NCBI GenBank assembly: GCA_031763025.1
Contig: JASSKH010000007.1
Location: 5,905,930 to 5,969,929, forward strand
Length of the DNA stretch: 64,000 nucleotides
Origin: Macrocystis pyrifera
Lineage: Eukaryota > Sar > Phaeophyceae > Laminariales > Laminariaceae
Direction of reading: 5' to 3'
Shown piece after piece: positions 20,564-50,300 of this stretch. The notes beneath the pieces were generated by a model. It did no database searches, had not been told where the DNA came from, and saw nothing but the letters and a program-made list of their open reading frames with translations. Positions within the stretch are counted from its first letter, which is position 1. Each line of letters starts with the position of its first letter. The translations under genes were made by a program, and so were the position numbers.

Positions 20564-20959
20564 TCACCCGCCTTCGCGATTGGCCCATGCTTCTATACGA
20601 CAACTACACTCTTCCGGCGCCTGCGTGCATTTACACTCGCCGCTGTCGCTCGCGCTCAACCCGCCGTTAGCTCGATGCCTGAAGTCGGTCCTAGCGGTCT
20701 GCCGGCTTCCCAATCCTTCCAACCTCAACGCCCTGGCTACCCCGAGGTCGGGCCCCTCGATGGGGGATCCCACGGGGTCAAACGCCTCGTTGTCGCATAG
20801 GGGAAAGGCGTACGTCTCCTCGCAGTAGCCCTCCCTCACGAGCCAGTTGCCCACCTTGCCGATTTCCGCGAGGCATTCCGAGGTGTACTCGGAGAAAGAG
20901 GCGGGTGTGGAGGTGACTTGCCCGCGGAATGTCACGTCGCACGCCTTGCACATGCGGAC
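20564..20959 (-). CDS. Giant gene last exon (Cys-rich C-terminus, stop)
   Basis: VRMCKACDVTFRGQVTSTPA, YTSECLAEIGKVGNWLVREG, YCEETYAFPLCDNEAFDPVG, then CKCTQAPEECSCRIEAWANR and TGA. Acceptor CGAAAAG. Likely disulfide-bonded. No membrane helix or GPI-type tail is seen. Confidence 0.78.
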   Translation of the reverse strand, partial: VRMCKACDVTFRGQVTSTPASFSEYTSECLAEIGKVGNWLVREGYCEETYAFPLCDNEAFDPVGSPIEGPDLGVARALRLEGLGSRQTARTDFRHRANGGLSASDSGECKCTQAPEECSCRIEAWANREGG

Positions 20960-23900: not shown

Positions 23901-26900
23901 GCCGTAGTCGTACGACCATAGGGGGGGGGGGGGGGGGGTGTACTCATTATCGTGCATGGTCGTAGTCATATGACCATAGACCCTCGCATCCCTACAATAC
24001 CGGGACGGAACACGTCGGGTTTACACCGAAACAGGCAGACATTTGTTGCACCAAGCGCGGAGCGCCGTGAGGTGTTCGTCGAGTCGCATTGAGGGTGAGC
24101 TGTATCCCACTAAGAACCTCTTATGAGGCAACGTTCGGCACCTTGTGCGTACTTTCTTACACACGGATGACAGCGTCGAATGAGTTGATTTTGTCTTCCG
24201 GTGTGGTCACTTCAAGAGACAGCAATGGGTGCGGGGGGTATGTCCGGGATGTGTGCCACGATGGACGGTGACACGGAGTTAACGCCGTGGTTTCCCATAC
24301 TTTAGTGCGGGTAGGAGAGGCAGGCACTTCTAGTGGCAAAGTTGGCTCGATCCAGTTGAGGCAACAAGGAAATGCCACTACGTATACAACAAGAGACAAC
24401 CGTCCGTTGGACACACGATACGGAATACATCTGCAAAAAATGGCGGTCTATCCCCAATAGACACAACCAACTTGTAACAATTCCACAGACCGGCAAATTA
24501 TGCTGCTGCTGCTGATGATGATGACGATGATCATCACGATTATGTTCGCACGGTAGCTCATTTCCCTGACATCTAGCCAGAAACGTGCATATAATATATG
24601 CAAGCGCACAAGTACAAGAGAAGACCGTACCATGATACTCGTATAGCGCTATATAGTTGCGGGGTAATAAATAATGGAGCATGGAGGGTAGCATTCACCT
24701 CCCAACCAGCGATTCCCCCATCGCCATGCTTGTCTCGAACAGCCGCCCTGCCGATGCCCGTCGCGGTCTCCTTCATTGTCGTATCCCGGAAGCGCAGGAT
24801 CCACCGCCCGCTCAAGGCCGTGTCCATGAAAGCTGCGGTCAAGCTTTCCTCTGCTTGGATCGGGTCCCACTCCTCGCGGGCGGGAACTGGGTTCGACCGC
24901 ATCGACCTGAAAAACAACACGGCGGGGGTTGAGCGTTGGCGACCGGACGAAGGCTTACGGTATGGGGGGGGGGGTTGTACTTTAGTCATGCATGGCCGTT
25001 GTCGTATGACCATAGACCCTCGCATCCCAAAATGTCGAGACGGAGCACGTCGGGTTTTCACCGACCAGGCAGGCATTGCTTGCACCAAGCGCGAACCACC
25101 GTGAGGTTTTGGGCGAATCGCATGACGGGTGAGCTGCATCCTACTATGAACCGCTTTCGAGGCAGATTTTCTTGCAAATGGATGACGGCGTCAGTTAATT
25201 GATTAATTTTCTGGTGTGGCCACTTCCAGAGACAGCAATGGGTTTACTATGTAACTGCCAAGTGGGTGCCTTACCATGTACACATTGCGTGATACGATTA
25301 TCCCACTTGTGCGGAGTTAAGTTTTCCCCGGACAAAAAATATCTAACTCGACGGCCAGCCGTGGTGACCGCCCCCCCCAAAAAACGGTACCCTGGTTGTC
25401 CAGCTTAGACAGTGAGAGGCGTGTTTCACAGCGTCGCCTCCAACCGACGCCAACTCAACCTATATATACCAGGTATATAATTTAGAGGGGGGCGGGGGTC
25501 GTGCTAAGAACCGCTTGTGAGCCGGACTTGCATACGGACGACAGCTTCAATGAGTTCATTTATTTTCTAGTGTGGCCACTTCCAGAAACAGCAATGGGGG
25601 GTACTATGTAACTGCCTCGTGGGTTGACCGTAAACACTACGAGATGCAATCATTCCCTCTATGCGGAGAAAAGCTCCTCCACTCTCCAACTCAATCGCCA
25701 GCTGTGACCGACCGCCGAAAAAAAAAAAAAAAACGGCACCCTGATTGTCTAGGTCACATAGTGAGTGGCATGTTTTACAGTATCGTTGCCATCCGACGCG
25801 TACCCAACCTATATATAATATATAGGCGGGAGTAGGCCTACTTCCATTGCCGAGTTTAGAGCGACTGCGCGTGTTGCTCCGTGAACTTGCTCAAAGACAC
25901 CGACTTGGCAGAGGTTTGTTGGAGCAGCGTCACTGCCAATTTTCATGGACCGACATCTGAAACACACAAATACCTACCAGGTACGTAAGACTGTGGCGAG
26001 ATAGGGTGGCCACTCTTGCGAAGGGCTCTTAGCGGCCGGAACACGAAGGCCCTCAAAGTGACCCCTCACACGGCAGCTCTGGTCACTGGCGGAAGGTGTA
26101 TAACCATGCGCCGCCCTATGAGAGTGTCGAACCATTCATCTCCAGGTGGACAGGGCATCCCCGCAAACGAAATATATAGAGCGACTCCCGACGAACAGGC
26201 CGACCGATTCGTGCTGTGTACTCTCGACAGGAAGCATGTTTAGCTCTCTCCTCGTCAGTGGAGAGAATAAGGGTTGGTGGTCATCGAAGACACGAACGTG
26301 GGGTGCGCGGACGAAGGGCGGTGTCGCCCACAACTTCATACACTCTTATCTCAGTTGACTAAAGGGAGTTTTTCTCCCGTGCAGTAAAGTAGTGATTTTA
26401 CTCTTAGTAATACTGTTGTAACATCGCGTTGTAGGTTGATTCGTACCTAGTACATAGTTTGGGATCAATGAGGCCTCCTGCTGCGATCAGCCGGAGACTC
26501 TTACCCAGGGTTACTACTCCCGCGTTAATTATCTGGCAATCAACGCGGCACCTCGTCGCAGAGAGTAGGTACCCCGGTCAAATAAACAATAATAAAACTG
26601 ATGTCTTTGTCGACGGTACACCTCGCTACCAACGATGGTCAGGTGGGATGGTCAGTTTTTTTTCCTTCCCTCTTTATATTTTTTCCTTTTGTTGTAGAGC
26701 TGCGACATCACTCACGGAGTGATACTTAGTCACTGTCTCCCAGTACAACAATGAGGCTTTCCCGAAAAGGGAGTCACCCTGCGGGCGTCCCCTCTTGTCT
26801 GTTTCAGATTACTGTTGAAAAATCGCGTGGTAGATTACTTCGTATATAGTTTGGGATCAATGAGGTCTCTCTGCTGCGGCAGGAGATCACACCCATGCCT

Positions 26901-29900
26901 GTTGACTCTTCTCTTATCTCAATGTCGTCGCTCGTTTGACTCGTATCCTTGACTCGTATCCTTTCTGCGGGTTCCTTCTCTTCCTTACTGTCCCCAAACT
27001 TAAAGCCTATTTGATTAGGGGCTCTGCTACCGTTGGTTGTCCAGTGGGAACGTCGTGTACGATTTTCCAAACCCCTCCGACAGTGATGAGCTGCTTAGGT
27101 ATGCGATTGCGGTGTGTGGCACCCGGAACGCGTTTACCTGGTAGTCGGCCCGCAGGCTTTCGTGGCGTGTCTCCCTGCGGTTCTTCTGGAGTTATCATAC
27201 GCTCACGTCGTGCTTGAGGGGCTGTTGTAGAGTTAAGATATCGCTCACGGAGTGACACTTGATCATTGTCTTCTAGTACAACGATGAGGCGTTTCCGAAA
27301 AGGGATCCACTCTGCGGGCGCCCCCTCGTTTCTGTTTCAGATTACCAAACATATCCTGCATCTACATAGTGAGAATCAGTCATAAAATAGAGTTAGGCGT
27401 TAGAAAAGCGATTATTTTAGCGGCGACCCCGACTTTTTAAGCATACAAAATCCGCGCCGCTGAAACCCTCTCAGAACTACACCCAACGATGTTTGGGGAC
27501 AAACTACACCTGCAAGAAGGTGTTAGATAATATTTTCAGTCGAAAAAAGAGTATAGGTTAAGAACCTCGGTTTAGGTTTCACCGGTCCCGGTCGGGTCGG
27601 GTCGGGTCAGCTCGGGTCAGGTAGCTTTCAAATTATCACGGATCGGGTCGGCATTACCCGACCCGACCCTACCCGACCCGACTCGATCCGACCCGACCCG
27701 CGAGGTTTGACCAGACCCGTGAACAGCCCAGGTTATTTCCCTTTTGCGGTGGCCCCGTTACTTAACCTTGCAAACCTCGGCTTGGGTTTCACCAGTCCCG
27801 GCCCTCGCCAAGCTGACCCGCTCACCCTAAGTAAGTATGGTTGCACTCACTTCGATAGGGGCAGAAATGACAGTTCGTACGCCTGCAGCTCACTGATGGA
27901 CAGGTACCCCGTCCCCTCCAGCTGGACGCGAATGACGCGGCCCCCCACGCCGCCGGCGATGGGGATGTTCACCTCCGGCTCGTTGTCGGGCACGTACACA
28001 GAGTAGCTCGCGTTGGCTTTGGCCTGCTCGAGCGACTCTAACCTGTTTGTGCGTGTGGTTTAAGCAGGGCGGCGTCGTGGGAGGAAATAAAGGAACCGAT
28101 CTATCATAACCGGTTTAGGACTGCAGTCCCATTGTGGACACACACCACTAAAATTCCAAGTAGTTTGTCCCCAAAACGAGACTGCAGTCCTAAAAGGGAC
28201 GATTTGTGTGGGCGTCCTTCAATATGACAGGGACGTATATGTAGCAACTTCTGGCGAAAAATATTTATCTGTGATGGGGCCGGGGCTCCTCAACTGGAGC
28301 ACTAGACCCAATAATGTATTATAGGAATATCGTTTGTGTGTTCACGTGATATATTCGATGTAAACCTACTATTCAACAGGCATTTGGGTTTGGCTTTTTT
28401 CGGGTTACACTTTCGTTTTTTTTTTCTCTCGAAAAGTCAGTTTTTTTTAGGCTGAGGTGTATAGAGTGCCTCGGGTGAACGAGTCTCAGAAAAAAATTAG
28501 GTGAACCCCTACCGTATGTCTGATGGGGAAGTGGTCATACGGGAGAGCGATTAATGGAAGCTGTGTTTTTTTCCAATTTTGCTTCTAGTCGGGCACCGTT
28601 TTTTTTTTTCGGCCGCTGGTGGAGCCCACTATGAACCATCTTTCGTAACACGGTACACGTGGTAGGTTTGCGGCAATGTCGTGTTTTGTTCTATGTGATG
28701 TTGCAGGCGGCAGGCGATCTCGGGGCAAGTGACCAACACACTCACTCCTGTCGGCGGCGGGTCTTTCCTGCTATAGACGCTGCTGCACATTATTAACAAG
28801 GGGGGAGAAGCTTACGCTTTAACCCATTGTGTACGTCATACATGAGGGGAGATTGATCTCTCAACGTATAATGCAGGCAAAACAACAGATACAACAAGTA
28901 CTCATGAAAAAAAAAAACGTCAGCGGCAGGATTTCGTTGAAACTCGTCTTTGCAAGCTGTGTTGATATTTCATTTTTAAGGGGGGGAGGGGGTGAAATAT
29001 AAATTATATGAAACGCTTTTCCAGGAGACAATATGGATCAACCATGGCAAAAAACAATATCAGTCGGGGACACGCCACGGTGAACCGGACGCGGTTTGCA
29101 CTTGCCCATCGGCGGCCTCCGTGGAGTTGAACACCATCACCCAACTTGGCCCATGCACGGCGGTGATAGTGTGACTGACCCCATTCACATAGATCCTGCA
29201 CGGTACGGAAAGTAGTAACAAAAGGAGCCCACAGTTGGGGGGGGGGGGGGGGGGGGGGTGATAGGTATTGGCGGTACGATATATTACATGGAAAAGGTGC
29301 GCGCGGACGGGGGGGGGGGGGGGTGCTTATGCATGCATGGCCGTAGTTGTATATCCATAGACCCTCGCATCCCTTCAATGCCGGGACGGTGCACGTCGGG
29401 TTTTCACCGACCAGGCAGACATTACTTGCACCAAGATCGAGACGTCGTGAGGTGTGTTCGTCGAGTCACATGAAGAGTAAACTGCATCCTGCTAAGAACC
29501 GCTTGTGATGTGGACTTTTTTGCATATGGATGATAGCGTCGGACTAATTGGGGGGAGGGAGAGGGGGTGTACTCATGCCATGCAAGCTGTATGACCATAG
29601 ACCCTCGCATCTCTACAATACCGGGACGGAGTACGTTGGGTTTGACTGACCAGGCATTGATTGCTTGCACCAAGCGCGGAGCACCGTGAGATGTTGGGCG
29701 AGTCGCATGAACGGTGAGCTGCATCTTGTTTTGGGCTATAAAAATGCTACCATGCCCTCATCGTCGCACGCGTTTCTCACCCTCCGGCCGTAGTGCCGTC
29801 CTGGATCGTGGCGAAGGTGAAACTATTTCCGAAGCTGGTGAGGCCTTCGTCAGAGCCGAGTTCTATCTGAGGCAAGTCGCCCGCCGGCGACACAAACGTT

Positions 29901-32900
29901 ACCGTCCAGGTGCGCTGATACAGCTCGGCGGAAGAAGATGAGCTCGATCGAGTCACCTGTAATAGAAGTGGTAATAGTAGGTAGTAGTACAGTAGCAGTA
30001 ATAGTAGTATTAGTAGTAGCGTAGTAGTATTGGTACATACGCGCGCAGAATATATATAAAAGTGTTTATTAAATCATGTTGTAAAAAATAGATTGCAAAT
30101 AGGTTGGTTCGTTTGTATAATTAAACAGTCTCGTCAACAAATCAATCCGCTCGTTGAAGAAGGTGAATCGGTTCGGTGAACGCCAATCAATTGGTGTAGA
30201 GCTTGATCGAGTCACCTGTAGTTACACGCGCAATATAAAAAGCGTTTTGTAAAACCAAAGTGGGTCGCAATTGTATTTTTCGTTCAAGGTCAAGCCGATG
30301 TGCTGAATGTCAATCGGTCCGTTGAACGCCAAAGCCAAATCGGTTGGTGTAACGTTAATATTTTTCGTTCAAACGTAGAAGAAAAAATGTTCGTTGAACG
30401 TTCAATCGGTTCGTTGAAGGTCACTCTATAGTGAGCAGTCGTTCGACTGCGCCGTGTGAAACGTCGAGCTTGCAGATAAAGAAGAAGGTTTTCACGAGTG
30501 TCGTTGCTGGAATGTTTCACACGTCGAACTACAGCAGACCATCTACTGTAGAACCTAACCTGCCGTCATGAGATCTTGTGCAGGACCTGCATAGTGCATA
30601 CCCAACTCAGGAAATACGTGCTAAATCGTGGTGGTGACGCGGCTCCTATCGGGCAACATGAGCTCGATCATGCGGGTCAGGGATGTGTCTGCCCTGAACG
30701 CTCTACAGTATATCATGAAGCAGGAATCGGTTATCTGTAGGGGGAGTGGAGCGTTCCTTTTTGAGGAAGACCTACAACATGTGCCGGTTGCAGGTATCAT
30801 ATAAACTCGTACTGATCCATACATGTATGCGGGGTCATAGAGGTGAAGAGCCATGAGTTTTCGACGGTGTTGGTGTTCCCGAACCACCTCAAAGGCCTGA
30901 CCGAGGGAGCTATAAAACCGGGAAACTTTCGCGGAACTTGGGTTCCTGCCGTGAGCGTAGTCCCATCGGTGGTCTTGTACTTCACCTGCACAGCCGAGGG
31001 TGGTCTCCATCGCAACGGCTCATGCAACCGCAGCCATTACTATGCTGAGCAGGTGATATGTTTGTCTGCACACCACACAGTCACTCCCGACTACTGATGT
31101 GCCTCTTCTGATCACCACACAGACAGGGGTTGATTTAGAGTCACACCTTAACGAAGCTATTCGTGATTTATCACTTCACAAAAATGACGCGCAGGGGGAG
31201 TTAGTTTTTGCGTGGCCTGTCTGGCGCACCTACTCATGTGAGAAACCCCCCACGCACCCACATCCGTATCCCTGTAATCACATGCGTATCAGTTCGACAG
31301 AGATAGTGTGCATACATCATCATCATAATCATCGTTGTCATACCTCGACCGACGTGATGCTGGAGAGCTCCTCCAGCTTCGACTCCAACGACTCTCCGCG
31401 ACCCGTGCCCGTGGCATTCCCTTGCTCATCCCCCAGCGCCCCGACTGCGTTGTAGTAGATATCGCCTATTTTTCGTATGCGAGCAAATCGCAATAATTAA
31501 ATGAGGCGTAACAATTATCTGTTCGACGGAGGAAAGCTAAAAATGCAGCTATTTTTCCACGAGGGACTAAAAACATGGTAATCAGAACCCACGATAGACA
31601 CAAAAGTCCTATACCCCGGTATGTTTACACGCCGTTTTTTGTTTGAAATACTATGTCCCCCCCCTATAATATGTACTTGGTATATGCAGGTTGGGTTGGC
31701 GTCGGTTGGCTACGACGCTGTAAAACACGCCTCTCACTGCGTAAGTTAGACAGCCAGGGTCCCTATTTTTATTTTATTTGGGCGGTTACCACGGCTGGTG
31801 GTCAAGTTAGATCTTTTTGTGGGGGGAGAACCTTTACTCCGCACAAGGGGGATGATCGTATCACGTAGTGTGTATATGGTGAGGCACCCACGAGGCAGTT
31901 GCATAGTAAACCCATTGCTGTCTCTGGAAGTGGCCACACCAGAAATTAAATCAATTCATTGATGCTGTCATCCATATGCAAGAAAATCCGCCTCTAAAGC
32001 GGTTCTTGGTAGGATGCAGCTTACCCTTCATGCGACCCGCCGAATACCTCACGGCGTTTGCTTCGCGCTTGGTGCAAGCAATGTCTGCCTGGTCGGTGAA
32101 AACCCGACGCCCTCCGTCCCGGCATTGTAGGTATTCGAGGGTCTACGGTCATACGACTACTGTCATGGATGATAATGAGTACACCCCCCCCGTAATAGCT
32201 GGTTCTTAGTAGGATGCAGCTTACCCTTCATGTGACTCGCGCAATACCTCACGGCGCTTGCTTCGCGCTTCGTGCAAGCAATGTCTGTCTGGTCGGGGAA
32301 AACCCGACGTGCTCCGTCCCGGCATTGTAGGGATGCGAGGGTCTGGTCATACGACTACGGCCAAGCATGATAATGGGTACCCCCCCCCCCCCCCGCTTTT
32401 GCTCGTAATACCTCCTCAAACACTTTTTTAGGTAAAAGACGAGGCAAGAGAAGGGGTGGTGTGTGAGCGCTGCAGGATGTTAATGCCACTACTATAGCGT
32501 ACCCGCCTGACACTTTTCTAGGTGTGTGAGTAAGGCATGCCTTTGGTTGGACTTCACGACCACTGTAGTTGCTACTGTCGTCGGGTGGCGAAATAAGCCA
32601 ACTATGCTGACGACGGCCATAACAATATATCGCCATGAATTTAATTTGCTCAAGAATCGTAGCTACAGTAGCTCACCGGTCGAACCGCTGGCTCCTCTAG
32701 CATCCGTGAAATTCAGCGTGAAGCTCCCGCTTAGCGCGTTCTTGCTCCTGAGAGTTATCGTCTGGACCTCACTCTTCACGATTTCTTCCTCTTGTCCGAA
32801 CAGCCGGATGTAACCCAGTGTGTACGAGCTTGCGAGCGCTACCTAAAACATGGTCGTGGAGTCATACATACTCACAGGGTCAGAGTGGACATACATGCAC

Positions 32901-35900
32901 CTGTCCTCTTACCAATACATGGAGAGCTCAGCTTTCAGGCCATCAATCGATGTGGACAACACAAGTGTCCTATTTTCTAATACTAAGTCGACGTGTCCTG
33001 GGAGGATGTCCAGTTATGAAAAACCTAAAACTTATAAAAGGTGGGGCTGAACTTCAGATGAGCCCTCTGCATTCCACTATCTACAAAGGGAATTTTTTCA
33101 ATATGTAAGGTCGTGAGTTAGGCATGCCTTGGCTGGACTTTTGACGAAGTGCTTTGTTGGACGTGGTGGAGTGAGTCAACCAACTGACTTGATATTTTTT
33201 GTCAATACAAAAACACAACCGTCGCGCCACCACCAACCGCGCCAGCAGATTCAAAAGACGCAGAACCCCTCCGCAATTTTCCGCACGGATACTATCCGTA
33301 AAATATCTACCTGGTACGTATCTAACCAACTGTTAACTAGTCGGTGGTTACTACTAGTCAGCCAGCTCATAGCCCTGTAATAGAAAAATATTACCCTTTT
33401 TCCTTCCATTCTCTTGACCTGTTTCACACAAGAAAGCCAAAGGAGGGTCCACCGCACTCTGGATGCGAAGTGAAACGTTGCTGCGCGCATCAGAACGATT
33501 ACCGGGCCCCGTGAGTTCGCTTACAAACCGACTTGACGGCTTATAGTATTTTCCGGTACTTGGGTGGCGAAAGAACAAGCCAATTCGTAGCTGACTTATC
33601 GTTTTCGCATAAAGTAGAAAACCCCACGTCAAGCCACAAAACGCGCCGGTCAGATACGTACACAACTACGTACTAGTACGAGGAACTTCGTAAATTTCCA
33701 TCACGCAATTAATTGCACTGTAATACCTAATCAATTAGTACCCCGAAGTAATCGGCGACTTATACTCACTATTAATAGTCGGCGACTTATGGTCAACCAA
33801 ACCATAGCCCTAGATATATTGAGGTAAAACGTTATCTTACTATGCTTACCTGCCACCATGGCTCCTCTTCGAGAGCGGTCATCGTGGTAGACCCGTCGGA
33901 GAAGAACCGGCTAGGTTTCCCGTCCACCGCTGCCCCCGACACGCCTCCGAAGGCGGTAGAACTCTGCCTCGAAACCGCTTGCTCGTGCTTGGCCTGCACC
34001 ATTTATTGGAGGTGTCAGTGGTTCACATTTTTCGGGAAAAGTCATCGAATTATGTTTGCTTTTTAGCGAAGGCGGCCATCATCTTGCAGCATCCGCGCGG
34101 ACGTGTTTTTTTACCGTATCCCTGGTAAGTAACAAGCAAGACCCTCCCTTGGATTTTTTTCAGAGCCTCTCTTTTCCCAAGCATTGGGGGGGGGTTCTCG
34201 ATATCAGGCATGGCCGTAGTCATATGGCCATAAACCCTCGCATCCCTACAATGCCGGGACGGAGCACGCCGGGTTTTCACTAATCAGGCAGACATTGCAG
34301 GCACCAAGCTTTGGGAAGCGCCGTGACTTGTTCGGCGAGTGGCATGAAGGGTGAGCTGCATCCTACTAAGAACCGTTTGTGAAGCGGACTTTCTTGTAAA
34401 TATATGACAGCTTCAATGAGCTAATGGAGAGAGGGCACACACAAACGAAAACGGTGGCGTTGGAAAGGTCTACTCGTAGTCGAACTACTTCCATCGCCCG
34501 GCGTTGTTTGGTGATACTCTCCCCGTTGTAGCGAAAACATAAATAACTACAGTACCTACCTACTCGTGCCCTACGGTACTATCTTACACATCCTTGCACT
34601 CTCACCACGTTCTCCCCAACCACATCGGCGAAGGCATAGTCGTAGCCTATCCCTCGGTGCCGATACGCCGGTCGTGAAGGTGCGCCCGTTGAAGCAGCTG
34701 TTTGTTATCATGGTATCATAGTCCACATATAGTACATTCGCCAGCAGTGTGAGGGGTAAGGATTGTGTGAAGATGACCGGGAACGGGGCGGGGGGGGGGG
34801 GGGGTACTTATTATAATGCTTGGTCGTGGTCGTAAAGACCAATAGGCGCCGGGGGGGGGGGAAGGACTCATTATCATGCATGGCCGTAGTCGTATGACCA
34901 TAGGGGGGGGGGGGGGGGGGGGGGGTGCTTGATAGGAGAGATGTACCCGATCTCATGCATGGCCGTAATCGCATGATCATAGACACTCGCGTCCCTATAA
35001 TGCCGGGACGGAGCATGTCAGGTTTTCACCGACCAGGCAGACATTGCTTGCACCAAGCGCGAAGCGCCGTGAGGTGTTAGGCGAGTCGCATGAACGGCGA
35101 GCTGCATCCCACTAAGAACCGCTTTTGAGGCAGATTTTCTTGCATATGGATGACAGCTTCAATGAATTGATAAATTTCCGGTGTGGCCATTTTCAGATAC
35201 AGCAATGAGTTTACGGCGGGGGGAGGGGGGGTATTTATTATAATGCTTGGTCGTGGTCGTAAAGACCAAAAGGCGCCGGGTGGGGGGCAGGAGGGATCAG
35301 TATCATACATGGCCGTAGGTATATGACCATAGATGGGGGGGGGTGTACTCGATAGGAGAGATATACTCGATCTCATGCATGGCCGTAGTCGTATGACCAT
35401 AGACCCTCGCATCCCTACAATGCCGGGACGGAGCATGTCGGGTTTTCACCGACCAGACAGACATTGCTTGCACCAAGCGCGAAGCGTCGTGAGGTGTTGG
35501 GCGAGTCGCATGAAGGGTGAGCTGCATCCTACTAAGAACTGCTTGTGAGGCGGACTTGCTTGGGGATGACAACTTCAATGAGTTAGTTTAATTTCCGGTG
35601 TAGCCACTTCCAGAGACAGCAATGGGAGTACTATGTAACTGCCTCTTGGATGCCAAAGTGCCGTGAGGTGTCCGGCGAGTCGCATGAAGGGTGAGCTGCA
35701 TCCTACTAAGGACCGCTTGTGAGGCGGACTTGCTTATGGATGACAGCTTCAATGAGTTAGTTAATTTCCGGTGTAGCCACTTCCAGAGACAGCAATGGGA
35801 GTACTATGTAACTGCCTCGTGGGTGCCTTACCATAAACACCACGTGATACGATGTACTCGATATCATGCGTGGCCGTAGTCGTATGACCATAAACCCCCG

Positions 35901-38900
35901 CATCCCTACATTGCCAGGACGGAGCACGACGGGTTTTCGCCGACCAGGCAGACGTTGCTTGCACCAAGCGGTGCTTATTGTCATGCATGACCGTAATTCA
36001 GACCGTAGGGCGTGGGGGTTGGGGGGGGGAGGCTCCCACGGATTCCCACGGAGCTGTCTTGATCAGATGCGTCAAAATGAACCACAAGCCGGTGTGATAC
36101 ATTGATGTATGTACGCATGACCGTGGGCGAACGGGGCACGGCTTGGATTAACGCGTTATGATGTATTTTGGGATGTAATCTACGTGAGTGCCTCCACGCA
36201 AAGGCAACCGCGAAAAACTAAATGACTACGCTGGCATTGAAATATTGCAATGTCGTCTTCTTGCCCACCAAGTGTTAATGTGTCTTCACTTCACTTGCAA
36301 ACGACTAAGCTACACCCCGGTTCACATTTTTTAGTAAATCATTACTCTAGAGCTAAGGATGCTCGAAACGCTCAACACGCACCAGGATTCGGCCCGAAGC
36401 CTTGCATATAGCGGCGGTCCTCAGGGACTCCGAATTGCACTGCGGCAGGTCGTTTTCTTGTCTCGGTCGATGCGGACAAGATGCAAGAGTGCTCTTGGTG
36501 CATCAAGGTGATATCGAGGTCCGACGCGTCCGCGTGATACAGCCCTCGAACAACGACCTCGGTCTTGGTAACGAGATCTAGCAGGGATCCTGGAAAAAAA
36601 CCAGTAAGAGAGAGAGCCATATCAGCCATCGTGTCAAGTGAAGCCGGGACGAGGAATAAGTTGCAGGCAAAAGGGGTGTTTCTTGCGGTAAAATCGCAGA
36701 GTTGTTTTTTGTTATAGCCCAGCTGTTAGAATGCCCGGGGATTGCACAGCCCCCCTCTCTTGACTTGGGGAAGAAGTACGCTCTTATGCAGTAAACAGTA
36801 CTTACCCCCCTTTCTGACACCGACTTACCCCCTTCTGTCACCGACGTATCCCTTTCTGTCATCGATGTACTCCCTTCTGAAATTAACTTAGCTCCTTCTG
36901 ACACCGACGTACCCCATTAGGACACCGATGTACCCGCTTCCGACACCGGTGTACCCCCCTTCTGACACAGATGTACCCCCTTCTGATACCGACGTACCCC
37001 CTTCTGACACCACCGTACCCCACTATGACACCGGTATACCCCATTTTGACACCGATTTTTACCCCCTTCTGACACCGACATACTCTCTTCTGGGACCGAA
37101 GTACCCCATTCTGATACCGATGTACCCCCTTCTGAGACCGACGTATCTCCTTCTGTGAACGACGTACCCCCTTCTGGCACCCATGTACCCCCTTCTGACA
37201 CCGATGTACCCGATTCTTACACCAATGTACCCCCTTCTGACACTGACGAAACTCTTTCTCAGACCGACGAAACCCATTCTTACACCAATGTATCCCCTTC
37301 TGACACCGACTTACGCCCTTCTGTCACCGACGTACCCCCTTTTGAGACCGGCGGATCACCTTCTGATACCAACGCATGTGTACTCCCTTCTGCAAACGAG
37401 GTACCCCCCCTTTTGACAACGAGGTACCCCCCTCTGACACTAATGTACCCGTTCTGACACCGACGTGTGCCCCTTCTGATACCGATGTATTCGCTGCTGA
37501 CACAGACGTGCCGGTATCCCCTTCTGACACCGGCGTACCCCCTTCCGACACCACCGTACCCCCTTCTGAGACCGACGTATCCCCTTCTGACACCAATGTC
37601 CCCCTTGTGACCTCGATGTACCCCCCTTGTGACACCAATGTATCCCCTTCTGACACATATTTACCCCCTTCTGACAACGACATGTACCCCCTTCTGACAC
37701 CAACGTACCCGCTTCTGACACCAAACTGCCGGTACTCCTTTCTGACACCACCGTACGCCATTCTGACACCGATGCACCCCCTTCTGATACCGACATGCCC
37801 CCTTCTGATATCGATGTACCCCCCTCTGACACCGACTTACCTCCTTCTGACACCGGCAGATTGATGAGCGCGTCTGTGGTGGGGTTCGTAGACGCGCGTT
37901 TGATGGTGGCGTTCAAGTAAAGCTCCAAGGAGTCCGAGCCAGCGTGTTTGAAGTGCGTCGCATCATCACCGTCCCGCACCACGTAAACGAACGACAAGGC
38001 GCGGTCCTCGTCGGCAAAACTGTTTTTGTTTTCGTTTTGTGTTTCATCCGTTGAGGCGGTCCGTTGGAGTGGCATAAGGTGGGACACGAAGTAAGAAACA
38101 GGAAAGCTGGCCCCGGGCTGGATTTTTTTGTTGGGGAAATAATGCATTCTATGATAGAATCAGCACAATAACGGCTTCTGAGATTTTTCTTCCCGCACAT
38201 TTCAGTCTGCCTCTTCCATGTATATACGTAGTGACGCGTGCTGACCTTATGGGGATAGAACCTAACTGTTATGAGTCTCCTCGCTAGAAGAGCTCCACGT
38301 ATTGTACCTCACCCAAAACTAACTTTTGATGAAGTGTGTAAGCTCAATCCGATGGACAATCAACCCCATGGCCTGGGTTCTAGCGAAAAGTAGCCCTCAA
38401 ACACAAATGGGATAAGGCATGCCTTCTTGGGGTGGTGTTGTCAGTGCCCTTGGGGAGCACCGTCAGCCGTAAACAGTTCGCCCAAAAACTGATACAGTGA
38501 GTACCCCCATTTAAGAGCTCCCCAAAATAAGAGCATTCGGGACTTTAAGAGCGGTCTAATTGGCATGTCCCGCCTATGCTGAAAGCTATATGTTGCCCAC
38601 TACATATAAACGCGTTGTGTGCAGTAGTTATGAGCGCCTGTTTTAGCTTGTCAAGGGGCGCTCTTAAACCGGGGTACCCACTGCTACCCCTATCGCAGCA
38701 CGCGTCTAGTGCTCGTTCTCTTAATCCTTTTTGGGAATGCAGTCCCGTTCTGGGGACAAAATACTTGGAGTTAAAGTGGTTTGTCCCCGAACGGGACTGC
38801 AGTTTCGAAAGGGTTAATAGGCGTCCTGCAGGGCAAGGTAGCGGGGGGACGGAAGTTAAACAGGGAAATTGTCAAAATCAGCTGTTTGTTGGTTTGACAG

Positions 38901-41900
38901 CACGACGAGAAGGGGGAAGGCCGGGAGGGGCATGCTGGTAGTTGGTTTGACCGAGCTCGAGGCGGGGGGAAGATCGGTGTATATAGACTTAGCAGGCATG
39001 AATGGACACAGAAGAAGCGAAGGTTCGGGAGTTAAAACCAGACGGCCTCGCGTACTCACTGCATTACGAGTGATGTACCGTACGAGCGGACGGATGGACG
39101 GAGGGCCGTGCCATCGAGTCTACGCCGTCGCACCGTTTTACCCTATGTGGCCATAACGCGTAGTATCAGACCGTGCAAGTGAAGCTGTAGCACCTGATTC
39201 AACACCTTTCGTCGGTATACGTAGCAGGATTGTTATTCTGCCAAATATTTGCATCCACTACACACTTTGGTCTCCTAGTCGGGCACTTTAGTGATGTTTA
39301 CAGTCCAGTGTAGACGCCGACGATACGCCGAGCGTCCGACACGACCCATCGAGCTACATAGCGGTGTAAAAAAATCGAGGCATTAACCTGAGAGAGGGAA
39401 AAATGCGTCCGAACTATAAATAGCGGCTACAAGCAGCATCGACTACACAAAGCAGTCCAGGCTGTCGGGGGTATATAGCTAGTGTATGCCAAGCGCAGCT
39501 TAGAGAGACGTACAACACGGCGCATCAGGCTGGTAGGTGCACGAAATATACCCCTACCGCTGTGCGCTCTTGCTGCACGGTCGGTAAGACCGCACTTCCT
39601 TCTCGTTGTTTAGGGTGGCAAAAAAAGAACAGTGTGCACCACTTAAAAATAGTACCCGCGCGCTTACTACAAGACGCACCTGCCAGAGTCGAAGGAGCTG
39701 TCGAAGTACGCGTAGGACACCGGCGAAGTGTCATTCGCAGAGTCCAGGACAAACGATAGGCGGGGAGTGCCGCTGACATTAACCGGCTTATTGTAGATCA
39801 CCTTAAAATAATAGCGCATAGAACCAATACAAAGGTGATCAAAGGGAGGGAGGGGAGGGCAGCTGTCTGGCTGGGTGATTACGAGCGGGTACGCCTCGTT
39901 GGTAAGTGTGGGCACTTGCACGTATTGTGCACGCGCTACAATTACATAGGCAATGGTCAAATCGTCGCGAGCGGTCAAATAGACGACGAATGGGCAGATT
40001 TTTCGGCGGTCGGCGAGATTCCGTATCCAACGAGTCTCGTCGTTTTCCGTCATATATTATGGTGTGTTTCTCGGACGGATGTCGCATATAATCTACTGGC
40101 AGCATACAATACATTGGCAAGGCTCAACCAGTAGATGGCTACGTACTGCCAGTAGCAGTCTACTGGCTGTGCCTGGTATATATTAGCTGTTGCCGTTGCG
40201 CAGTCCTACACATTAATTCCAACAAACCTGAAGGTCGACGGACTGTCCCATGGTGTACACCCCCTCCCTCAAGGACAAGACGGCAATGACGTACGGTGCC
40301 GAAGTGTCAATCACGATGTCGTTGTTGATCATCAAGCTACCGTCCTCTCCAGAAATTGGCAGCGTGGTGTCTGCCACCTGTTAGCCGCAAGACATGACGA
40401 AGCTGTTTACCGTAGTAGTCCCGATCAGGCGTTCTTGGGGAGATTGTTTGATAAAAAGCACCCCACGATAAATGCAGACTTGATGGATGCTCAGGAATAG
40501 TAGATAAGAGGTCAAACAGGACGTATGCGCAGAAAGAAGTTAGACGTCGTGCACAGACACGTAGGTGTCCCCTTTTTTGTTTTGGTTTCCCTTGGTTGTC
40601 TTCTTCTCTCGGGATTTGTTTTTGAGCGACCAACGATTAAGCTCATTCATACTGCAAAACATTGTCGGATAGCAAAACGCAACATACAATACTACTAGAC
40701 GTTTGGGAGCGAACCCGACAGTATTATTTCTCTGGATGATGAGATGCCCCTATGCGGAACGCATTTTTCATCAAAAGGGGCAGGCAGGCAACCTCAGCGC
40801 GTGATTGCTGTATAATAGAAGAAGTTGCTCGGAAAATAATGGCGACATTTATATTTTTCTTTCTCCACTTTTGGCAGATCGGGTGGCACAACTACAACGA
40901 GTTTGGGTAGTTATTTGGGTTAGGAGCCCATCAGTCATACAAATTGTGACGAAAAAGTCAAGGTCAGCCGCCCGCGTTCTGGGGACAAACTAAATTGAAG
41001 TTAAGAGTTGGATAACGACGGCGGCAAGACACACACCCCGCATAAAATATACTAAGCACGTATACCAGGGTACATATAGTATTGCACTTTAGCCTTGCGG
41101 GCTAACCTGGGTGGGCGCGTCGGAATCGCGGAGGACGATGCCGACCAAGCCACTACCCGCGCCGGCCTCTCCCCCTTCGTACGTCCCTAGGTCCACCGAT
41201 TCATCTCCATCTGCTACGGTGTAGAGAAAAGTCAGGGCGTTGCTGCCGTTGCCAGACAGATAAGGGGCCATACCCGAGGACTGATCGCCACCGGTACCCA
41301 GCAACAGAACTGCACCAGGTAGAAGCACGACAGGATAGTCGAAGGTAATCGTAACATCGATCTCCTCACCCGCGCCGTACTCCTCTGGAGAACAAGTGAC
41401 GCGTTGAGAACGGGGGAAGGGGGGTTAAGGATAAAAAACGTGGAATTGTGGGGCGCTTAAGCCATACCGCTGTGTCCCTAAATTTAAGCACCATTTGTAA
41501 ATTCGTGTTTGAAGAATAAAAAAGGCGTCACATTTCGGGACAGAGTGGTATTTCTTGCCAACCTGCCGGAGCATCAAAAAGCAAAACAAAAAAGGGTTGA
41601 ACATGCTGCAGACACAGTTCGTCGTTTGACGCCACACTAAATTTAAGGGTCACTGGTGAAAGCGACTAATAATAGAAGGATGTATACATGCAGCGAGAAT
41701 ATCGTACTCGGAGCTTGCCCGCGTCCCTACTTGAACCTCTAAATTACCTAAACCTTTTGAAAACACCGCAGCGAATAGATTACCCACGGTGAAACACTCG
41801 GTATGCTTTCTCCCCCCCTCCCTTCCTCCTTCCCTCCCTGCGTTTTACGCCGAGCGATGGAAACGGCAACCAACACTACGAATACACACAGCAACAGATC

Positions 41901-44900
41901 GAACAGAAAGAAAACATTGTATTCCCGACCTATGGTACACTTCCGCACGACGGGTGTTGCAATACATACCAGGCATGGGTTTCGACGAAATTCTCGATCT
42001 CACAGCTGTTGTTTTTTTTAATTTTATGAGTATGCAGCATGATCTTCAACTTTGACCACTCACTTACTGGAGCTTCAACGTTTTCGTAACAACACACACG
42101 TAACATTCCCAAAAAAATGCAGAAGAAGCAACTCAAGGAGAAAACCACGAAAAAATGCTTACCGTTTCGTTTGCCGGACTCAACATTGAGCACGTAGGGA
42201 GGGACGGTGTGCACCACCAGGTCATTGTTCAGCGCCAACCACCCCTGCCCACTGTCGTCGTTAGCCTGCAGGAGAACCATAGGCGTCCTTCCTTCGTCCA
42301 GAGTCTGGTCGCAGATGGTTTAGTGAGAAACATCAGAGTAACACAATAACAAATTATGACAGGGAGTGGGCAAGGAAACAAAATAAGCCCTTGGAGCCCT
42401 ATGCAAAAATGAAAAAGATGGTTTTCGCTGGATTTATTATTCAATGGGAATATGTATCAGGCTTAGCTTACATTTGTTCTCAAAAGCCGGTTGTTGAGTG
42501 GAATGTAGAGCCCCTCATTTGTGAGAGGAGTCTCGGGGGATTGTTTTTGTGCTATCCCCCCCCCCCCCCCCTCGTGGCACGCCTCACAAGCAGTGCAGAT
42601 TTGGTTTTGTGTTGTATATACGTTGGTGAGGAGAAGCCGGGAGGGCGGCGCACTCGCTGATAAATTATGTTCGACAAGACACAAATTTGAGGGACTTTTG
42701 GAGAAAAAAAAGGGCGGCAACTTTACTATTATGGGGGACCATAGTAAATAGGACCTACGGTACACACAAAAAACCATATATTTTCTATTTTTACTAGCAC
42801 TATGTGGTCCTACGTATTACTATGGTCCCCCGTAGTAGAGAAGAACATCCCTCACCTCGGACACATAAATTATGTACAGATAGATAATCTATAGATAGAT
42901 CATCAATAGATAGATCATCTTGAACCTAACCCGTCGTTATGAGAGGTTGCGCAGGGCCTGTCGAGTACAGACACCAATCCAGGGAGCACGTCCTGCTGAA
43001 GATCGTGTAAACTGTACGGTCCCGACAAACCCGGCAACATGAGCTAGATTTTTATCCTACAGGTCAGGGATCTATCTATCCTCCCTGAAATATGTAGATG
43101 ATGAAGAGTAAACTATCTGTCCGATCTGTCGGAAGTGGGCAAGGATAAGGTTTCGAAAAGAAACGCGCCCGGCATCGGCGACTGCAGAAGTTCTTCGTTA
43201 TCCATCATACGCACTTCTAAGTAGATTGAACCCAACGTCGTATAGTTGCACGGAATACATACCTGGGGGGGGGTGTACTCGATAGGAGAGATGTACTCGA
43301 TCTCATGCATGGCCGTAGTATTATGACCATAGACCCTCGCATCCCTACAATGCCGGGACGGAGCATGTCGGGTTTTCACCGACCAGGCAGACATTGCTTG
43401 CACCAAGCGCGAAACGCCGTGAGGTGTCCGGCGAGAGTCGCATGAAGGGTGAGCTGCATCCTACTAAGAACCGCTTGTGAGGCGGACTTGCTTAGGGATG
43501 ACAGCATCAATGAGTTGGGTAAATTTCCGGTATAGCCACTTCCAGAGACAGCAATTGGAGTACTATGTAACTGCCTCTTGGGTGCCTTACCTTGAACACT
43601 ACGTGATGCGATCAATTCCCTTGTGCAGAGCAAAGATTCTTGACCTCGCACAAATGATCTAACTCGACGACCAGCTGTGGGCGACCGCCAAAAAACAAAA
43701 CAAAAAACCCCCCGGTACCCTGGATGTCTAGCTCACGTAGTGAGCGGCATGTTTTACAGTGTCGTTGCCAACCGACGCCAACCCAACCCATGTATAATAT
43801 ATAATGGGGGGAGGGGGGGGGGGTGTACTCATTATCGTGCATGGCCGTAATCGTATGGGGTGTGTGTATGACCATAGACCCTCGCATCCCAATAATGCCG
43901 GGAAGGAACACGTCGGGTTTTCACCGACCAGGCAAAGGGGCGAGAAACATTCTACCACGTGGTCGCGCGCTGTTCAACTGTCCTCCGTCGTCATGTTTCT
44001 TTGCTTGTTGTGAACGCACATACATCCAGCGGCCGCTCGTTGGTCATGGCAAAAAATAGCTCGAGGCATGGAGGCATTATTCAGCATGAGTCAGGTCACT
44101 CACCCATGAATAATAATACAGCAGTCCGCATGCACGTGTTCATCACTAGAGTATTGCAACGCCATCGTACCGCGTGACCTGTGCGCATTTTTGCGCTGCC
44201 AACAGTCGATACGCACTTTGCCTCCCGTGGCGGCATCTACCGGAAGTTTGCTGGAACGAAGTACACACCCACAACGTATTTTTTCTCACTGAGTCTGCTA
44301 CCCCAACGGGACGCGTCTCCGTGTTCAGCGCCCGTTGTCTCTCTATATCTAAGGGCCAGTAGGGCACAACCATAAAAAAGTATGTGCTCGAATTCTTTCT
44401 TTGGCATTGGAACCTAAACTAAGGTAGGGCTGTGAGTGAGTAAGGTGTTCCACTTTTCGTTGGTTGACTGGCAAAGTAACTCTATGAACTGACTTTAGTG
44501 TTTGCGGTTCGGGTCAAAACCTCGCCGGTAGGTTACCGAGGCGTAAGGTTTTGAAGGTCTCCTGACCCGACCCGACCAGACCCGTGAGATGCTGAAGACC
44601 TCCTGACCCAACCGGCGGGTCGAGTAATGACCCGTGAACAGCGCTGAATATATGGCAATAAAAACCATGATTCCGAGGCAAAAACGAGCCAGCCTGAAAC
44701 AAAGATACAGAACTCCGTGATACCTTTCTCCCCACGCTAACTACAGTAACTGCAATACCCAGTATGTAGTCAGCTAAAACGCATACAAATTGCAATACCC
44801 CGTATATTAGCCAACTATTAATAGGACGCAAAACTAACTGCAATACCTCGTACATTAGCGAACTAAGACGCAAACTAACTGCAATACCCCGTATACTAAC

Positions 44901-47079
44901 CAACTAACTAGCAAAACTAACTGCAATACTCCGTATATTAGCCTACAAACACGCAAAACTAACTACAATACCCCGTATATCAGCCAGCTAAGACGTAAAA
45001 CTAACTGCAGTACCCTTTACATAGGCAACTAACACGCCAAAACAAACTGCAACACCCCGTATATAAGTCAACAGACACGCAAACCTAACTCCAATACCCC
45101 GTACATTAGCCAACCAACAAGCAGAACTCGCTGAAATATACCGCATATTAGCTACGTAAAGTGACACGCAAAACTAGCTGCAATACCCCGCATATTAGCC
45201 AACTATTCATAACACGCGGAACTAACTACAAAAGTCAACTATTACAACACGCGAAACCAGTTTAGCTGCAATGCCAATTGCCAACTAATAAATCAATCGG
45301 CGACTTGTATCAGGTCAAGTCAGCCAACCCATAGCTCCATCAATCGCATATAGGGCCCCACCTTGATACTGGCACCCTCCGGAATGACGAGCGAGTTCTG
45401 GCCGTTCGTGTCGAGGTCTCCGGTACTTTCTCCCTCTGAAATGGTGTAGAGAAACCAAAGCACACCGTCGTTTTCCCCGCCGTACGCATACACGGCCGTG
45501 GTGTCGGGGCCCGCGTTCAGTTCCAAAAACGGCGTTCCTTCGACCTCCTGAAGAGTGGGGGGGGGGGGGGGGGGGGAGGGGGGAACAGGAAAAGCGTACC
45601 TACAATCGTTGACATTCATCCCAAAATCGCCACGAAAAAATACCGGCATTATCCTTGCGGAAAATGTATATTCATAGCTGGTTGGGAACTTACCCTAAGG
45701 TTGATACCTGGTCTTTGCTTTGGAATTTTTGCCGTTTGTAGGTCTACGTAGCGCTCTGCTGTTATGGTGCTTTGATACGGAACGAAAGGTTTTGCTGATG
45801 TTGACGAGCACATGTTTCTCCTTTCGCGGTAATACGTCGTTCTGTGATTAGAGTTTGGATGGTTCGAACAGGGGGGCGGATCTCCCAGATTCGTAGATCG
45901 AAGGGCCGTGTAGAGTCCGTCGTAGGCTAACTAACTCGGTTCCTCTGCGGCGGACCAAACCCTCTGTACCTCATGGGAGCCCAAGGCACGTACGCATGCT
46001 ACCGGATGGAAGGAAATGCGGGAGAAGCGGACACCACAAAAAGTGGAACGATTTGGCCTACCGCGTACTTATTGAACCCAACGTAAATCGTGTCTAATAA
46101 GCGGTAGGCTCGGTCCAACAGGATTCTCGTCTCCGTCGCAGTTTTTTCATCTCTCTCGGCTTGCCATCATACCTGGTAGTGTTTTTAGTACGACAAACCC
46201 GCCCCATTGATGATCATCGCCGTGTCATTTCGTGCCCGCAGTTTTTTCTCTTATAGGCTGAACTTTCGATCGGAGTGATCTGATTGGTCGACTTCCTACG
46301 GATCAAACTTCTGAAACGAATGATCTGATTGGTCGACTCCTTACAGGTCATTTTTTTCATCTGATTGGTCGACTTTTTACTTAGATCAAACTTTTGAAAG
46401 GAGTCTTATGATTGGCCGACAAAAAAATGGTCGCCAAGTGACGTACAATACGCCATCCACGCTGCGGGGGTCGCGGGGGTCGCTTGAAAAACAAATGGTC
46501 TTTTTTTTTCGAAACGGTGAATCTCGGGGGAAAACTGAAAGTTCACCTGTTGTCCTTCATCGTTTTCAGTGTCCTCTGTCGATCACGAATCAGCAAATTT
46601 GAAATTTGCTACTGTAGTTTCACCGTCGGGGTCAACCTTCTAGAGACTGCAGAGGGGAAAATTGACAATGAGAAGTGACGATTACCCAAACCGCCACTGC
46701 GTGATTGAGGGATGATACACAGCTAGTGTCCGAGTTACAATGCTTGAAAGCAAGGAGTCGTACGTCACGGGCGCAACATTAATCTACCCGTATTACTACT
46801 GTAGTACTCCTGGGCCCTCTCGCTGCTCGTGTATAGACGGTTGATAGGACCAAAGTTACCAACCATTTGTTCTGGTCGCTACCTCGGAGTCCCAAAGGGA
46901 TCAGCGCGGCGCTACCTTCTCTCACCACAAGGGTAGACATGTAGACCTGGATATAAATGTCTTCACCAACGCCATATACCCCATTCGGTTTACTCGAGTT
47001 GACCTGTAATGCAAGGAAAACAATAATGCGGCAGGCACACGGACAGGCAGACAGACAGGCAAGACAGGCAGACAGACAT

Positions 47080-47142
<63 letters not shown>

Positions 47143-47157
47143 GGCAGACAGGCAAGC

Positions 47158-47198
<41 letters not shown>

Positions 47199-47237
47199 GG
47201 CAGACAGGCAGGCAGGCAAATAGACAGACAGGCAGGC

Positions 47238-47314
<77 letters not shown>

Positions 47315-47320
47315 GGCAGG

Positions 47321-47366
<46 letters not shown>

Positions 47367-50300
47367 GGCAGGCAGACAGACAGACAGACAGAAAGACAGA
47401 CAGAAAGACAGACAGTATTGTCAATGACCACCAGCGAAGGGCACCCAGGCAAAGCCCTACATGCTGGCTAGTGTGTATATACTCATGCCCCGCCGCCACG
47501 TATTGATCCCGAAAATATCAAATACTTTTCTGGTCAATGAAAGACAATTATCCAGCGAGTTGAAGAGAAAAGAAGATTCGAGCGAGGAGAAGACATTTGT
47601 CGCAAAAATTAATGCTCTTCACGGGTCAGGGACATTTTCGAAATCTAACGGGTCAGGTTGGGCCGGGTCGGGTCAGGAAGTTTTCAAACTATCGCGGGCC
47701 AGGTCGGATCACCCTTGCACGACCTGACCCGACCCAACCCGACCTGACCCTTGAGGTTTGACCGGACCCGCGAACAGCCCTGGCGAAAAGGATTGTGCTG
47801 AAAATCTAAAGGGCGGGGGGTACATCCAATAAACTCCTCATTATATCCGTTGCCCGCTCTTCCTCCCTCGCTTGAAGGAGAACTTGATTTGCATACCGTC
47901 GTATACGGAGAGAATATGTTACGTCTCGCAATATCGTTGTCGGTAGTATTGTACAGGACGGCCCAGAGACCGATCTCTTTCATCAACGAGGGGAAAAAAT
48001 CCTTGACGCGATCACTCCTCAGATGCCTATCCACTTCGACTCCGAAAATATGTTTTCAAAATATTTATATATATCGAGAAAAGTACACGTAGCCGTCGCT
48101 TTTGAATGGAGCTCCACCGCCAGCAAAACAATTGTAGCTATTGTCGTCAAATTATGTGCTTTGGGGGTATATGCGGCGGACGGCGGACGGCTCCAGGCAT
48201 CTCTCGAAAAAAGGGGTGCTTATTTTGTTTAGTCGCTGCCGTCAAAATTGGAAAATTCTACTACTACCGGGCGGATTCGTAAGAATCATTCAAACGTTAA
48301 TACAAAGACGAAGCGGTCCTTAGATTTCTGTCCAGAGTGCTATATTGTTCCACTCTTTTTTAACTGGCGCACGTCGGACACATGCTTAGATCATCTAGAT
48401 CATTTAGACCATCTACAGATAGATTATCCAGATCATCTACAGATAGATTATCTACAGATATGTCATCTAGATGCTAACCTGCCGCTATGATAACATTGTC
48501 CAGGATCGTGTATGGTACAGGTCCAACCCAGTACAAAAATGTGCTGTGGTAGATCGTGCAGATTGTACAAATCCCATGTGGCAACACGGTGAGCTAAATT
48601 TTAAGACGTCAGGAATTTAGCGTATCTATCTTGTTGAAGGATCTAGATCATGAAGTGGGATTCGATGATTAACTCCGGTGTGTGTAAACCTTGACACCTA
48701 CCACTCTGACCGTGAAAATAAGGACCCTTTAGACGATTTACAAGAAGACCAACCGGCCCTTATATTATCACCCAGAGTGTTAGACTATTGCTACAGCAGT
48801 ATGATACCTAGGTTTAGCTACGTGGCATATTATGATGAGGCGGCTGGACTATTGCTAGGATACCTAGGTTTAGCTACAGTAGGTAGCATATGACCATGAG
48901 GGGGTGCGGGGACGGGCCGGACTACTGTGCATATTGTCTTGACTGGTGCGATTACTCTTGATCACTCACGCTTGTCGACATCATAGTAGCGCTTCCTTTT
49001 CCTCTGAGACGGAGGGCAAGTATTCCTCTTCCATTAGAAATAATAAAAACGTCTCCGCGACAATAAAGGGGAAGCGGGGATGCCGAAGCACTACACCCCG
49101 GTAACTTGGTAGGTGGTCCTCGTGCCTACTAAAATTAACTACGTAAGCTCACCGAGTGCGCATATTCACAGGGACTTTTCCTGCTTAAAAAGTTGATGTG
49201 CGGAAAGTGCGACAGCGTGAGCTAGCAACATTCGATGAAAATTGACGAGCAGTGGGAATGCTAAACCCTATGCGCGATAAAAATGAAGGCATGTGCCGGC
49301 TGGGAGAAGGGACGACACCTGCTGTAACCACTGCTTGTCCAAAACCTGGAAACTAAAAATGATGATAAAAAAAACAAAAAACAGTACTGGTCCCTCTATC
49401 GTGCCGACATGCGCCAGCCAACACTACCGGCACTAACCACTCCGCACACTGCCACACTGTTCAATCCCATCTCTGCCAAGAGATTCCACAGGCACTATAG
49501 CGGGTAACCGGCACTTTTAAACAGGTGGTATAGAGAGACCGCCGCTGTACTCAGGATGGAGACTCTCACATTGACAACACGGGCGGCAGTGGAGTCCACG
49601 ACCACTTCACAAGACCAGCTGAGGCTGCCCGCGGCCCCTTTCGCGGGCAGCGTGAGATCAACCGAGGTCGTGGGGTTTGCGCTCGCCCGAAGGATGTCTC
49701 CTTCTTCCGCGGACAAGGCCGCAGAGGACGTGTACCCTAGCCTGCTTGATCCGTCACCCTCCTCCACCTGGATGGATGCGAGCAAAGGTGGGGACAGGAT
49801 ATTAATGCACATAGAACGCGAACATGAGCTTCATAGTTGGTGCGGGCAGTACAGCGTTTGGACGACGACGGGAGCATCGAAAAAGGTTTCACTGATTGAT
49901 CGGTGCGACGTTTTTACATACTACCTAAATCTTCCGAGACTCCTTGCCTCGCTTAAGAACAACTGATTTAGATTTACAGGGGAAGAGTACAAGCGTAAGT
50001 AAAAGCTGTATATGAGTCCGATCGATGATGCGCGGGCAGTCCCATGGGTTTGGCTAGATATCGAACGATTTATTTTAAAAAAACACCATGGTTTGGGTAG
50101 TTTCTCAGTTGTAGTGGATGAAATGGGTTGCAATGGTTGAGGCCAACCCCCTGATTGCAACTCCTGATTGCTACCCCTAATTGCTACCCTTACTTACAAC
50201 CTCTAGCTGCAATCGTTGCAACCCCTAATTTCGTCCCCTTCGGTAGCACGGGTTCGGTTTCGTTCGTTGCCGCCCAGCGGAGAATCGTGCCAGTTGGACA

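Follow-up and report, generated by a model that had tools for sequence, protein, structure and literature searches.

A 49-unit minisatellite across a splice donor of a brown-algal gene, probably of the amphioxus mirage type

Introduction

Two kinds of minisatellite at splice junctions stand closest to the locus described here: the amphioxus "mirages," for which the source cited is reportedly Canestro et al. 2002, and the minisatellite of the human gene 6-16/IFI6, which is said to go back to Turri, Cuin and Porter 1995. Mirages are minisatellite-like tandem duplications of exon–intron boundaries, with units of 10–72 or 150–160 bp, which occur in Adh3, BflGb6, BflGb9, TnC, and PGBD5; many but not all of their units carry splice signals, and their length is unstable (PMC3087553, PMC3902484). 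They are reported to leave splicing undisturbed (PMC3087553). The human 6-16/IFI6 (G1P3) gene behaves differently: splicing there also uses two downstream repeat units as donors, and three mRNAs result (PMC4526556). Boundary repeats have also been described from human segmental duplicates, where tandem repeats lie at exon–intron boundaries (PMC2812944), and from the potato RdRp gene, where an intron was gained by boundary duplication (PMC4974935).

Here we describe a 21-bp minisatellite at 36800..37855 (minus strand) of a 64-kb window, the whole stretch of Macrocystis pyrifera DNA that was analyzed. As in the amphioxus mirages, its units span an exon–intron boundary, the authentic boundary is found at the cluster's edge (the donor at 37841 is in the outermost unit), and many of the units, though not all, carry splice signals. 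The host is a brown alga and not a lancelet, and the array has 49 units, whereas the two BflGb6 haplotypes have 6 and 3; its unit measures 21 bp, compared with 10–72 bp in Adh3 and 150–160 bp in the globins. Undisturbed splicing and length instability are reported for the mirages; the brown-algal array is known from the sequence of one haplotype. It resembles the 6-16/IFI6 repeat in that it sits at a donor and has repeat units that look like donors, but its in-frame downstream donors are weak, whereas two are used in the human gene. With the human segmental duplicates and potato RdRp, it shares a boundary duplication that copies splice signals and alters exon or intron structure; unlike them, it enlarges an existing intron, and no new intron was seen. 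The matches listed in the literature, in a coverage that leaves out most subscription journals, included no earlier brown-algal boundary minisatellite.

Results

The host gene and its repeats

The host gene occupies 20567..63504 on the minus strand and encodes a large repeat-domain protein in 28 exons. It was delimited by tblastn with the predicted Ectocarpus sp. 13 protein P0021 (1893 aa), whose residues 1–1893 map to 63504–20567, followed by spliced joining, by which 25 of 27 introns were confidently joined. The other orthologs were a partial protein from Hapterophycus canaliculatus (P0001) and a protein from Phaeothamnion (P0002), which is more distant; among 20 protein-search matches, these two were examined whole and five were aligned. 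The Ectocarpus and Hapterophycus proteins, to which exon 16 is 80% and 79% identical, respectively, are predictions. Pfam found no domain in five exon pieces and gave only sub-threshold matches in the orthologs, chiefly F5/8 type C, in agreement with PDB sequence matches of P0021 residues 1157–1268 to Sm-hPAF, FBP32, and fucolectin-related chains. The "P-like" domain named in the initial annotation reflected resemblance by eye only, and no such domain was found by Pfam. A structure model of Hapterophycus P0001 (three sequences) had a mean pLDDT of 35 and was left unused; the junction discussed below was placed in the protein by its repeat motif.

Several other features of the gene and its surroundings were recorded. 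Two of the 25 confident introns have GC donors, at 51959 (GAG/GCAAGT; the slash marks the splice junction) and 29106 (TGG/GCAAGT). A GACA tetranucleotide array of 93 copies at 47042–47415, read in the transcript as pyrimidine-rich TGTC, stops 39 bp before the acceptor at 47003, and a GTA trinucleotide tract at 29959–30029 comes within 3 bp of the acceptor at 29956. A further intron of the gene holds a 42-bp minisatellite of 10.7 copies (44747–45205), with 157 bp between it and the donor at 45362. A 410-bp segment is present as a tandem duplicate at 17946–18767 with 99% identity, a recent event. A dispersed repeat recurs on the minus strand within the gene at 61417–61025, 60800–60441, 43732–43116, 35997–35306, and 29757–29425; its translation contains, by eye, variants of ASQAVLSRMQLTLHATR...SAWSVKTRHAPSRHCRDARVYGH, and it is probably a transposon fragment.

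The array begins inside exon 16

Exon 16 (37841..38019, minus strand) ends in ...INLPVSEGG and is followed by the donor GAG/GTAAGT (37835..37843, minus strand), with the cut at 37841/37840 in phase 1. Intron 16 (36590..37840, minus strand) is 1251 nt long and ends at the acceptor 36590/36589, and exon 17 (36383..36589, minus strand) starts with SLLDLVTKTE. The resulting join, NLPVSEGG-SLLDLVTKTE, is collinear without gaps with the predicted Ectocarpus NLPTLEGGSLLDLVTKTE and Hapterophycus NLPASEAGSLLDLVTKTE; neither predicted ortholog has extra residues at the junction, and the Phaeothamnion protein is 2 residues longer there. The exon end itself varies, reading TLEGG in Ectocarpus and ASEAG in Hapterophycus rather than VSEGG. 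Phase and orthologs both uphold the earlier assignment of the real donor to the outermost unit of the array.

The minisatellite runs from 37855 to 36800 and comprises 49 units as assembled, a copy number that the assembly may have miscounted; on wrap-around alignment, 875 of 1029 positions (85%) match the consensus CGGTGTCAGAAGGGGGTACGT. Tandem Repeats Finder described the same array as 36807–37855, with period 21, 48.8 copies, 72% matches, and a score of 777. The initial annotation had placed it at 36802..37856, and the array stands with both ends corrected. Unit length is 21 bp in 37 units and 20, 22, 23, or 27 bp in the remainder. Unit 1 reads CGGTGTCAGAAGGAG/GTAAGT, that is, 15 exonic bases plus GTAAGT, exactly 21 bases, so the array sets in 15 bp inside exon 16 and the exon end belongs to it, as expected for the proposed derivation of some 49 units from an exon-end plus intron-start segment. 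The last unit closes with GTAAGT and is followed by single-copy intron; counted from this GTAAGT, intron 16 would measure 216 nt. Four of the 49 units carry GTAAGT, namely unit 1, an internal unit (from 37314), and the two at the far end (36828 and 36805), which had been noted earlier. Edge units have not diverged further from the consensus than those in the interior. No unit-like sequence matching at 16 or more of 21 positions, ungapped, was found outside the array on either strand of the window. A tandem duplication of the junction segment accounts for the period, the phase, and both ends of the array.

Chance adjacency of the array and the exon end was considered and rejected on a unit-by-window comparison, in which the exon end was itself part of unit 1. 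Among 19 tandem arrays tested within the gene (nested Tandem Repeats Finder rows and arrays outside the gene were excluded), this minisatellite was the sole one to overlap a splice site. Separately, 31 of the 152 substitutions from the consensus are of CpG type (G-to-A changes at unit position 20 in 19 cases and C-to-T changes at position 1 in 12); CpG decay, and hence methylation, perhaps shaped the array at 36800–37855.

Relatives have the boundary without the array at the intron start

A comparison with relatives had been suggested at the outset, and we took it up with 11 short ORFs from a further protein search, all of which were examined. Four hold exon 16 and continue into the intron, with exon ends VSEGG (P0026 and P0029), VSEAG (P0027), and VSIGG (P0024). 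None of the four has the array in the part of the intron that is visible, which covers only the first 41–130 codons (130 in P0026, 112 in P0029, 57 in P0027, and 41 in P0024). When repeat peptides were counted in three frames, more than one match was found in P0021 alone, which had two. Three further ORFs (P0022, P0023, and P0025) start in the intron and reach exon 17 at the identical point. DNA of relatives was not found in viral and prokaryotic contigs. Because four relatives have the exon end and the intron and lack the array at the intron start, the exon end is older than the array, and the array at the intron start is an addition, in the lineage of the window, onto an old boundary. Read by hand from the translations, the relatives' introns start with GTGGNT (P0026), GTGTNC (P0029), GTGCNG (P0027), and GTACNT (P0024), the last of which resembles the array consensus. 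Since all of these differ from GTAAGT, the GTAAGT of unit 1 may be derived, and the unit may have gained its strength later.

Unit 1 is the strongest in-frame donor

We scored donors with a position matrix trained on the other 22 GT donors in this gene, excluding the two GC donors and the focal donor and omitting the introns with ends at 58661 and 23309, whose joins were poor. On this matrix, which is mildly circular because the choice of splice sites favored consensus-like ones, the training donors scored from 1.3 to 7.9, and unit 1, at 6.5, was the third best GT donor of the gene. In an array of the IFI6 type, the repeat consensus should itself be a good donor; here the consensus-unit donor GGG/GTACGT scored 1.74, below 20 of the 22 training donors, and GTAAGT was confined to the four units given above. 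Two positions set unit 1 apart from the consensus: it has A at −2, where G occurs in 44 of 49 units, and A at +4, where C occurs in 39 of 49. Among the 1890 two-substitution neighbors of the consensus unit, unit 1 alone attains a score of 6.5.

A scan of 141 GT dinucleotides found, besides unit 1, eight sites scoring at least as high as the weakest real GT donor and none reaching the lower quartile. The former class occurs at about 7.7 per kb in the array, compared with 3.0 per kb in the other introns of the gene (33 kb), where sites at or above the lower quartile occur at 0.54 per kb. These densities indicate that the array is enriched in weak decoys and, by matrix score, lacks a strong one. 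The internal GTAAGT (37309..37314, minus strand) stands in a weak context, GGC/GTAAGT, and scores 0.36. Predicted pairing with U1 put both far-end GTAAGT sites level with the real donor (−10.7 kcal/mol): −10.3 kcal/mol for unit 48 (36823..36828, minus strand) and −11.7 kcal/mol for unit 49 (36800..36805, minus strand). Transcripts spliced at either would contain the stop at 37442, so the far-end copies would not serve as the extending donors that had been supposed.

Of all pairs of changes to the consensus unit, the reversion of positions −2 and +4 raises donor strength the most, which led us to consider that the array could grow only because the amplified copy was a poor donor. We regard this as a tentative idea and somewhat doubtful. 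If true, the array would record selection against decoy donors or, with the order reversed, selection for a stronger unit 1 once competitors had appeared.

Downstream donors would rarely extend the protein

According to the initial annotation, the exon frame stays open to about 37440 with a seven-codon period (VSEGGTS), and downstream donors would add multiples of seven residues, giving a variable linker between two domains. The open frame was borne out, the first in-frame stop reading on from exon 16 being at 37440..37442 (minus strand), but the VSEGGTS frame lasts only into the eighth unit, since this unit measures 23 bp. Stops are missing from all three frames of the consensus unit, which makes an open frame automatic, and we rejected such a frame as a sign of coding. 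Selection on the coding capacity of the array was likewise rejected: substitutions are alike by codon position (50/46/56) and the frame is not maintained, with frame-shifting lengths in 9 of 49 units. The first seven units do keep the frame, and a run as long occurs in 21% of shuffled unit orders (P = 0.21).

The use of successive units as donors, which would extend the protein by about seven residues at a time, has a precedent in human IFI6 (PMC4526556), and there are sites at which it might happen: 12 in-frame, stop-free GT sites, 11 of them downstream alternatives, four of which would add 7, 21, 28, or 35 residues. All four score below zero, however, and 10 of the 11 alternatives (−8.8 to −0.5) fall below every one of the 22 training GT donors. 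The best, CGG/GTACGT at 37703..37708 (minus strand), scores 2.09 and would lengthen the protein by 44 residues, a number not divisible by seven. The donor of relative P0024, GTACNT as read by hand, leaves room for such sites to work in brown algae. Against this, the frame is not conserved along the array and shows no codon-position signal, and the predicted orthologs have no extra residues. Moreover, other repeats of the same protein end in LP..G..GSL (for example, TLPVSGEDGSLTVNNDIVID in P0021), which places the junction inside the conserved LP..GG/SL motif of the last repeat and not between domains, where the variable linker had been put. We consider stepwise extension unlikely, and a role for the array in seven-residue alternative splicing is not supported.

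Somewhat less likely still is that the whole array acts on splicing, for example through G-rich intronic enhancers that define the donor or regulate intron retention. G-runs can function as intronic enhancers in vertebrates. The array is rich in them, with 41 runs of three or more G in 1041 nt (39 per kb, compared with 10.8 per kb in the other introns of the gene), but these stem from the exon-derived unit itself, relatives splice the same intron without the array, and the enhancer role would have to be carried over by analogy from vertebrates to brown algae. In C. elegans, minisatellites are statistically linked to alternative splicing (PMC4039745).

That the array began within the intron and only afterwards replaced the exon end, so that its ancestral look is only apparent, is very improbable: tandem arrays are common in the introns of the gene, one of them 3 bp from an acceptor, and the Ectocarpus and Hapterophycus exon ends are not VSEGG, but the identical VSEGG exon end is encoded in two relatives whose intron starts lack the array (P0026 and P0029), and both edges of the array fit a junction unit.

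Discussion

Probably, the array is a boundary minisatellite of the mirage type, in which a junction segment was duplicated in tandem, unit 1 is still spliced, and the rest is removed as intron. A 21-bp segment straddling the exon-16 donor would have been duplicated in the lineage of the window and then expanded to 49 units, all of which except unit 1 would have turned into intron. The spliceosome would keep to unit 1 as the strongest in-frame donor and excise the remaining units with the intron, and occasional use of a far-end GTAAGT would yield an mRNA with a stop. The array would have no required role and may be a tolerated tract that is probably unstable in length.

This mirage-type explanation draws on the gap-free orthologs, the relatives whose intron starts lack the array, the score of unit 1, the sole overlap with a splice site among the arrays of the gene, and the amphioxus precedent. 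We counted against it the predicted U1 pairing of the far-end sites, which equals that of the real donor, and the richness of the array in weak decoys. The origin of the array from an exon–intron boundary is well supported, and we infer that splicing normally takes place at unit 1.

The brown-algal array is a large further example of a known phenomenon, and its mechanism is not new. Its presence in a brown alga suggests that mirage minisatellites across boundaries are not confined to lancelets. It also offers a natural experiment on the choice of a single donor by the spliceosome from dozens of near-copies spaced at 21 nt, and on the growth of introns.
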